A DNA stretch of 22,782 bases from a virus. A model generated the notes under the pieces. The model searched no databases, was not told the DNA's origin, and saw only the letters and a program-made list of their open reading frames with translations. Each line of letters opens with the position of its first letter. Position 1 is the first letter of the stretch. Location: positions 1 to 22,782 of IMG/VR virus record IMGVR_UViG_3300047564_000493; one strand, written 5' to 3'. The translations under genes were made by a program, and so were the position numbers. This document shows positions 3,794-5,646 of this stretch, piece by piece.

Positions 3794-4099
3794 ATGACTT
3801 TATTCACACTTACCCTTGCTGCTCTCGCCTCTTGGTATGGCCATCCCTATCACGGGAGAACCACTGCTAACGGTGAGACTTACAACATGAATGCAATGAC
3901 TGCTGCACACCCGTCTCTTCCGTTTGGAACAAAGGTCAGGGTCTGCAGTAAGAAGACTGGCCGCTGTGCTGTGGTACGAATCAATGATCGTGGACCGTTT
4001 GTTCATGGTCGTTCAATTGATCTCAGCAAAGCAGCTGCTCAACGCATTGGTGTGTACAGCGAGGGCGTAGGTGAAGTATCAATTACCCCTGCAAACTGA
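3794..4099 (+). CDS. RlpA-like double-psi beta-barrel protein (putative lytic transglycosylase)
   Basis: A 101-residue protein that is almost entirely one RlpA-type double-psi beta-barrel. It shows the family landmarks in order: A-S-W-Y-G near residue 12, T-A-N-G-E-T-Y-N, T-A-A-H, L-P-F-G-T-K-V-R-V, V-V-R-I-N-D-R-G-P-F and G-R-S-I-D-L-S. Bacterial RlpA proteins cleave naked peptidoglycan glycan strands at division sites. The Glu of G-E-x-Y, the His of T-A-A-H and the Asp of N-D-R-G-P are present; the residue that is Asp in some RlpAs after G-E-x-Y/F is Asn here. No SPOR domain and no lipobox are present; only about 12 hydrophobic residues precede the domain, so a true signal peptide is doubtful. 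It sits between scaffold and capsid genes, an odd place for a lysis gene, and could be a virion or lysis-helper enzyme. The ATG at 3794 has no clear Shine-Dalgarno sequence. Confidence 0.88.
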   Translation: MTLFTLTLAALASWYGHPYHGRTTANGETYNMNAMTAAHPSLPFGTKVRVCSKKTGRCAVVRINDRGPFVHGRSIDLSKAAAQRIGVYSEGVGEVSITPAN

Positions 4100-4146: not shown

Positions 4147-4230
4147 TCGCTTAGTGCCCGTGTCCGTGGCATTGTAACGGCAACTTCGCAAATCCCCTCG
4201 TGGGTCTTCTGCAGAAGCGGTAAAGGAAGG

Positions 4231-4263
4231 GAAGTAGAGCACCTCAGAGTAGGACTCTACTTC
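4231..4263 (+). other. Stem-loop between RlpA-like gene and capsid gene
   Basis: GAAGTAGAG (4231-4239) is perfectly complementary to CTCTACTTC (4255-4263), with a 15-nt loop, giving a 9-bp stem. No T-tract follows, so it does not look like an intrinsic terminator. It could be an mRNA processing or stabilising hairpin, as T7 uses between late genes, but the sequence alone cannot tell. Confidence 0.6.
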
Positions 4264-4373
4264 TATTGGCTATTGGCCCTCTACGGAGGACACCCTTTAG
4301 TCATTGACGGTGGGAGAGACCACAAATAACAACAACAAACACTGAATGCCAATGAACTTGGTTCGTTGGAATT

Positions 4374-4396
4374 CCTAACCGGTTAGGGAGACGTAA
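4374..4396 (+). promoter_or_regulatory. Candidate phage RNA polymerase promoter for the capsid gene
   Basis: A perfect 14-bp palindrome CCTAACCGGTTAGG (4374-4387) runs into TTAGGGAGACGTAA (4383-4396). The core TAGGGAGA equals the start-site region of T7 class III promoters, and the 14-mer matches 10 of 14 positions of the promoter I recall for the Syn5 cyanophage polymerase (ATTGGGCACCCGTAA, from memory). The place, about 25 nt before the capsid ATG, is where T7 has phi10. The polymerase gene is outside the window, so its specificity is unknown. Confidence 0.4.
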
Positions 4397-4402
4397 TAAA
4401 CA

Positions 4403-4416
4403 CTTCTCTCTTTTCT
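4403..4416 (+). promoter_or_regulatory. Pyrimidine tract replacing a Shine-Dalgarno before the capsid gene
   Basis: The 14-nt run CTTCTCTCTTTTCT ends 4 nt before the capsid ATG and there is no purine-rich ribosome binding site. Cyanobacteria initiate many mRNAs without Shine-Dalgarno pairing, and pyrimidine-rich leaders can bind ribosomal protein S1. This is a plausible translation enhancer for the most abundant virion protein; the role is inferred. Confidence 0.4.
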
Positions 4417-4420
4417 AACA

Positions 4421-4771
4421 ATGGCTAATGCCACTCAAACCGTATTCGGTACGCTTAACAAAGCCGTAGCCGATACCTCTGGTTCGCGTGCTTACGATAC
4501 TAAGTACGCAACTTATCTGAAACTGTTTAGCGGTGAGATGTTCAAGGCGTATGAAAGCGCCACCATCGCTAAAGGAACTGTTCAAAGCCGCACCCTGAAG
4601 AATGGTCGCGCGATGCAGTTCATCTTCACTGGCCGCATGATGGCTGGTTACCATACCCCTGGTACTCCTATCCTGGGTAGTGGTGATCCCCCGGTGGCAG
4701 AGAAGACCATCGTCTGTGACGACCTGCTGATCAGCTCGGCATTCGTCTATGACCTGGATGAAACTCTGGCT
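4421..4771 (+). CDS. Major capsid protein, exon 1 (residues 1-117)
   Basis: Codes for the N-terminal 117 residues of the T7-like capsid protein (T7 gp10 equivalent, HK97 fold), the subunit of the icosahedral shell. The sequence Y-D-T-K-Y-A-T-Y-L-K-L-F-S-G-E-M-F-K-A-Y-E and A-E-K-T-I-V-C-D-D-L-L-I-S-S-A-F-V-Y-D-L-D-E-T-L-A is typical of cyanopodovirus MCPs. The frame reads straight into a TGA at 4772-4774, formed by the first three intron bases, so an unspliced message yields only this fragment. The product continues without a missing residue in exon 2 at 4981, giving L-D-E-T-L-A joined to H-Y-S-L-R-S-E. The joined protein is 338 residues, reasonable for the family. The last 8 nt of the exon form the 5' half of intron helix P1. 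Confidence 0.93.
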
Positions 4772-4980
4772 TGAAGTAATGGGTCAGAGTATAATAAATT
4801 GGAAGAATTGCTGGAACCCTAAGTCTTCGGATATGGCGATCAGCAGCCGAGCCTCTTACGCTTAAGAGGAAGGTTCAGAGACTAGGCGGGTTGGGAAGCG
4901 TCCCATGTAATACGCCACAAGCATCCAACACCATTTGGTGAAGATATAGTCCGAACCTAGTCGAAAGACTAGTACGTTTG
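4772..4980 (+). ncRNA. Self-splicing group I intron without ORF, inside the capsid gene (group IA-like)
   Basis: A 209-nt insertion whose removal restores the capsid frame. P1: exon CTCTGGCT (4764-4771) pairs with GGTCAGAG (4782-4789; as RNA G-G-U-C-A-G-A-G), placing the conserved U.G pair exactly at the 5' splice site. P10: GTAATG (4776-4781) is complementary to the first six bases of exon 2, CATTAC (4981-4986). P3: TTGGA (4799-4803) with TCCAA (4924-4928). P4: TTGCTG (4808-4813) with CAGCAG (4841-4846). P6: CCTCTTA (4852-4858) with TAAGAGG (4863-4869). P7: GACTA (4880-4884) with TAGTC (4947-4951), flanked by GGTTC/GAACC (4872-4876/4953-4957). A hairpin between P7 and P3 (4885-4916, inner GGGA/TCCC) suggests subgroup IA (P7.1/P7.2). 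P8: 4929-4940. P9: 4957-4972, closed by a GAAA tetraloop. The last base is G. The conserved AAGATATAGTCC segment is at 4941-4952. No homing endonuclease is encoded. Confidence 0.96.
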
Positions 4981-5646
4981 CATTACTCCCTCAGAAGCGA
5001 AATCGCCGCTAAGATCGGCCACGCTCTGGCTGAGGCTTACGACAAGAAGATCTTCCGCACCATTGCTAAGGCTGCTCGCGAAGCTCACCCCATCACTGCT
5101 GCTCCTGGTCCTGAGCCCGGCGGTTCTGTGATCCAACTGGGTGTGCAAAAAGAGTATGACGCTCAGGCCCTGGTTGATGCCTTCTTTGAGGCTGCTTCGA
5201 TCATGGATGAGAAGAACCTTCCCAAGCAAGGTCGTCAGGCTATCCTTTCTCCTCGTCAGTACTACGCCCTGATCTCGCAGGTTGACAGCAACATCCTGAA
5301 CCGTGACTACGGTAACAACCAGGGTAGCCTCACCAGCGGCGAGGGCCTGTATGAGATCGCTGGTATCCCCATCAAGCGTTCCAACAACCTGCCCTTCCTG
5401 GCTGGTACTGTCAACGCTATCAGCGGTGAGAACAACGATTACTCCGGTGACTTCAGCACCCACTGTGGTCTGATCTACCACAAAGATGCTGCTGGTGTGG
5501 TTGAGGCCATCGGTCCTCAAGTGCAGACCACCGGCTCTGACGTGAAGACCCTGTATCAGGGTGACGTTGTTGTGGGTCGTCTGGCCATGGGTTGTGGCAC
5601 TCTGAATCCCGCCGCTGCTATCGAACTGCAGTCGGCACGTAGCTGA
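4981..5646 (+). CDS. Major capsid protein, exon 2 (residues 118-338)
   Basis: Codes for the remaining 221 residues of the capsid protein, beginning H-Y-S-L-R-S-E-I-A-A-K-I-G-H-A-L-A-E-A-Y-D-K-K-I-F. It includes the conserved G-G-S-V-I-Q-L-G stretch, Y-D-A-Q-A-L-V-D-A-F-F-E-A-A, L-S-P-R-Q-Y-Y-A-L-I and the C-terminal D-V-V-V-G-R-L-A-M-G-C-G-T-L-N-P-A-A-A-I-E. A TTG at 4978 could mimic an independent start, but the protein would begin in the middle of the capsid fold and lacks a ribosome binding site; splicing explains it fully. Codon use is GC-richer and more biased than in the internal virion genes, as expected for the most expressed phage gene. The gene is followed after 17 nt by a small gene with a strong Shine-Dalgarno. 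Confidence 0.95.
   Translation, partial: HYSLRSEIAAKIGHALAEAYDKKIFRTIAKAAREAHPITAAPGPEPGGSVIQLGVQKEYDAQALVDAFFEAASIMDEKNLPKQGRQAILSPRQYYALISQVDSNILNRDYGNNQGSLTSGEGLYEIAGIPIKRSNNLPFLAGTVNAISGENNDYSGDFSTHCGLIYHKDAAGVVEAIGPQVQTTGSDVKTLYQGDVVVGRLAMGCGTLNPAAAIELQSARS

Follow-up and report, generated by a model that had tools for sequence, protein, structure and literature searches.

A predicted group I intron in a T7-like cyanophage capsid gene begins with an in-frame stop codon that probably protects the ribozyme

We find that the major capsid gene of a T7-like cyanophage is very probably interrupted by an ORF-less, self-splicing group I intron of the IA type whose first codon is a protective in-frame stop. 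On the sequence evidence assembled here, the stop would act as a safety device of the intron, and we found no support for a role as a timer of capsid production. Read in this way, the intron offers a clean natural example of a ribozyme in a heavily translated gene that shields itself from ribosomes.

The window (the whole stretch of DNA analyzed) is a 22.8-kb viral record with genes that include portal, scaffold, capsid, tail tube, nozzle and T7-type tail fibre, and the nearest relatives of its capsid gene are those of S-CBP1 and S-CBP3 (83–84% DNA identity). Gene content and nearest capsid relatives together place the virus among the Synechococcus T7-like podoviruses. The Rfam covariance model RF00028 matches positions 4763-4973 with 73.1 bits (gathering score 50; E value 4e-17), within the capsid gene (Table 1). 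Capsid homologs run uninterrupted across A117|H118, and joining the two exons gives an open frame for a 338-aa Gp10A-like, T7-type major capsid protein. Exon 1 ends in a U that forms the U4771-G4782 pair of P1, which is invariant across 13 sequences, and G4980 is the terminal G of the intron. The splice sites were placed after U4771 and G4980 because only these retain both the His codon of the homologs and the usual terminal G. Splicing after U4772 was ruled out, as it gives a 3′ site lacking the terminal G and alters the conserved His118. When the intron signature sequence was sought in bacterial genomes, no match was obtained.

Table 1. Features of the interrupted capsid gene and its predicted intron (window positions).
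Feature	Position	Strand	Remarks
Major capsid protein, exon 1	4421..4771	+	117 codons; Pfam PF21703 Gp10A-like profile positions 1-53
P1, 5′ exon strand CTCTGGCT	4764..4771	+	Ends in the splice-site U; pairs with 4782-4789
Group I intron, no homing-endonuclease gene	4772..4980	+	209 nt; RF00028 match, exon continuity, terminal G, consensus fold of 13 relatives
In-frame stop TGA, intron nt 1-3	4772..4774	+	Codon 118 of the unspliced frame
P10, intron strand AGTAATG	4775..4781	+	7/7 Watson-Crick pairs with 4981-4987
P1, internal guide sequence GGTCAGAG	4782..4789	+	Pairs with 4764-4771
P7.1/P7.2-like stems, typical of subgroup IA	4885..4916	+	Predicted; compensatory pairs, alignment columns 130-161 and 137-150
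P10, 3′ exon strand CATTACT	4981..4987	+	First bases of exon 2; pairs with 4775-4781
Major capsid protein, exon 2	4981..5646	+	221 codons and stop; PF21703 positions 54-279, following on from those matched by exon 1

The fold was examined in an alignment of 13 distinct introns that share one capsid insertion position (codon 117). P1, for which the preliminary description had given both strands exactly, is 94.6% paired among the 13 sequences, with double changes at 3 pairs; P10, which that description did not mention, is 90% paired, with compensatory changes at 4 of its 7 pairs. Taken together, 92% of the P1 and P10 cells are paired and 7 of 15 pairs have changed on both sides among the 13 introns, as against just 34–46% pairing in slid controls. 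The consensus fold recovered the core helices, P7.1/P7.2-like stems included, with 18 doubly changed pairs overall, and the location of these stems between P7 and P3 suggests assignment of the intron to subgroup IA. One record (L099), which matches the window over 13 kb at 99.99% identity, had its splice register set by hand to that of the window, automatic mapping having placed it 5 nt off.

The preliminary description had read the first three intron bases as a TGA in frame after residue 117, a reading that we confirm to the base. Each of the 13 introns at capsid codon 117 has an in-frame stop as its first three bases, TAA in 11 and TGA in 2 (the window and L089). Because these introns are related, this is conservation and not 13 independent events, and a lone stop at a single codon would say little against chance. 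Were the TGA missing, translation would continue into the P4-P5 region, to a TAA at intron nt 49 (4820). The proposals that the TGA keeps ribosomes out of the structured intron, that translation of unspliced mRNA would end after residue 117 and that full-length capsid would depend on splicing are supported. Ribosomes on unspliced RNA would then stop after residue 117 rather than unwinding P3-P5, the intron core would stay folded and subsequently splice, and spliced RNA alone would give the 338-aa capsid protein. In most group I introns, an early in-frame stop excludes ribosomes from the intron (reviews PMC3073962, PMC3984707). A 28-codon frame that runs into the ribozyme core starts from an ATG at 4779-4781, 4 bases past the TGA; this ATG exists because the P10 strand mirrors the His codon CAT, and it is a possible re-initiation hazard.

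Early stops were then counted in 62 introns of viral capsid and psbA genes, representing 15 insertion sites, among the matches listed by core-pattern scans. The 5′ splice sites were set by protein continuity, and the sites, which come from two genes, were treated as independent; a wider survey in which 5′ sites were guessed from P1 pairing alone proved too unreliable and was replaced by this mapping. Among the matches listed, 11.7 of the 15 sites have an in-frame stop that starts no more than 9 nt from the 5′ splice site, compared with 4.4 of 15 when these introns are read in their two other frames (permutation p 0.00025), so that early stops are ∼2.6 times commoner in the coding frame than off-frame. 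Similarly, the first stop falls before P3 in 59 of the 62 listed introns in-frame and in 33–36 off-frame (p 0.0003 by site). In contrast, stops placed exactly on the junction are not enriched among the same matches (4.3 of 15 sites in-frame versus 2.6 off-frame, p 0.23). Since enrichment is found within 9 nt but not at the junction itself, early termination appears to be favoured and its exact position to be nothing special. A comparable frame-controlled stop count was not found in the literature searched. Early stops are not essential, as introns at psbA codons 297, 335 and 337 persist with first in-frame stops only at +17 to +85. The introns at psbA codon 335 (L144, L178, L002) have no in-frame stop for 85 nt, and in one capsid intron (L123) the first in-frame stop comes as late as +33.

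One alternative sees the junction stop as a by-product of structure: an extended P1, facing the P10 strand with its mirror image of the conserved His codon, would fix intron nt 1-2, and the resulting UAA or UGA would not be selected as a stop. RNAalifold does extend P1 in this way, pairing intron U1 with G and nt 2 with U (A-U in 11 sequences, G-U in 2), and part of the stop conservation may therefore be structural. The lack of enrichment exactly on the junction points in the same direction, as does the fact that in many introns the splice-site U is followed by AA, giving off-frame stops as well. However, nt 3, which the consensus fold leaves unpaired, is nevertheless A in 13 of 13 introns, while nt 4-6 vary, and the enrichment of stops within 9 nt is specific to the coding frame and covers sites of all three codon phases. 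We therefore consider it unlikely that the stop is only a by-product.

The preliminary description had also suggested that translation and splicing may compete and that this could delay or tune capsid output relative to the scaffold; for the delay or tuning no support was found in the sequence. As to competition, the size of a ribosome footprint would put a ribosome on the TGA over about 4755-4784, where it would cover the P1 strand of the exon together with part of the opposing strand, so that termination and P1 pairing would be impossible at the same moment. In a regulatory reading, terminating ribosomes would occlude P1, and translation load or the light or energy state of the cell would set the spliced fraction. 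Two observations in cyanophages are compatible with such a gate, namely the shift with light in the ratio of spliced to unspliced RNA of the S-PM2 psbA intron (PMC5931967) and the detection of both isoforms for the Pf-WMP3 intron (PMC3428280). Light-dependent splicing has been reported for the S-PM2 psbA intron only (PMC5931967), the one condition-dependent phage case that we found, and it keeps the idea of a gate alive at low probability. On the other hand, reviews of T4 work report that splicing is efficient only when the upstream exon is translated, with the ribosome probably guarding against misfolding (PMC3073962; also PMC3984707), which runs against a simple competition between termination and splicing. 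Moreover, an intron at A117|H118 is absent from all 80 of the closest capsid genes in IMG/VR, and capsid production evidently needs no gate. We regard it as very improbable that splicing delays or tunes capsid relative to scaffold, and as about equally improbable that junction termination set against P1 folding forms a condition-dependent gate through which translation or light and energy set the late capsid amount and for which TAA or TGA has been kept.

It is also conceivable that the 117-residue product of unspliced mRNA, which any translated unspliced message would be expected to yield, is itself functional, for example as an assembly modulator. Its length is set by the insertion site, however, and insertions at codons 76, 123, 210 and 306 would give other lengths, which leaves no fragment conserved among these capsid genes; the 117-residue product also splits the Gp10A-like domain. 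We give this explanation almost no credence, and continue with the protective stop as the preferred reading.

Among the closest known systems is the DNA polymerase intron of the T7-like cyanophage Pf-WMP3. It begins with UAA, a codon that, as its authors noted, would terminate exon 1 whenever the intron is not removed (PMC3428280); it is a direct precedent for the junction stop described here. Like the capsid intron, it is a group I intron (IA2) in a protein gene of a T7-like cyanophage with an in-frame stop as its first three bases, and both introns have U-G at the 5′ site, a terminal G, P7.1/P7.2 and P10. They differ in that the Pf-WMP3 intron lies in the DNA polymerase gene, is 672 nt long, carries an HNH endonuclease and has been shown experimentally to splice, whereas that of the window lies in the capsid gene, is 209 nt long, has no endonuclease and is predicted from sequence. 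The introns td, nrdB and nrdD of T4 are longer, carry endonuclease genes and are found in nucleotide-metabolism genes. As in the intron of the window, an in-frame stop comes soon after the 5′ splice site in these T4 introns; their splicing depends on ribosome position (PMC3073962, PMC3984707). Cyanophage psbA introns share with the capsid intron a related ribozyme core (68% identity over 76% of the query for S-PM2; 75% over 68% for S-SRM01) and in-frame stops (PMC5931967), but interrupt a photosynthesis gene, and at several psbA sites their first stop comes late. In crAss-like phages, group I introns also interrupt the major capsid gene, although these phages are a different lineage and their introns were recognised by endonuclease domains, which are absent from the intron of the window (PMC7886860).

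Introns occur at no fewer than five mapped positions in IMG/VR T7-type cyanophage capsid genes (codons about 76, 117, 123, 210 and 306), which makes the cyanopodovirus capsid gene a repeated group I intron target. Group I introns at codons 123 (L017/L093), 210 (L091, L098) and 76 (L094, L123, L337) each have their own 5′ end; L017, which is among the 80 closest capsid genes, has its insertion 6 codons downstream of A117|H118. Two capsid genes (L092 and L096) contain two group I introns each, mapped to codons 117 and 306, and another (L101) has an intron at 117 and a second one probably near codon 38, as seen in a raw scan. No description of introns in T7-type cyanophage capsid genes was found in the literature searched, and this intron family is apparently the part not described before. 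Capsid genes split in this way look truncated at the stop, which matters for annotation.

Within the window intron there is no endonuclease-sized ORF. The HNH_3 endonuclease was absent from 17 intron-bearing records, L099 included, and the GIY-YIG endonuclease from the window and 11 of the 17, all of these records being fragments. An intron-encoded or nearby homing endonuclease, by which a mobile group I intron is defined, was accordingly not found for the capsid intron in searches for the HNH_3 and GIY-YIG families in these fragmentary records.

Some features of the surrounding region were also recorded. A search for Syn5-type phage promoters around the capsid gene, using a consensus sequence, gave none above chance, and a search for sigma-70-like promoters in the same region gave none. 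Between scaffold and capsid, at 3794-4099, lies a gene for a 101-aa double-psi beta-barrel protein (PF03330, lytic transglycosylase-like), in the place where S-CBP1 carries hli and psbA. A long structured non-coding leader (4195-4425; fold z −2.35) is found upstream of the capsid gene and contains a 10-bp hairpin around 4230-4264.
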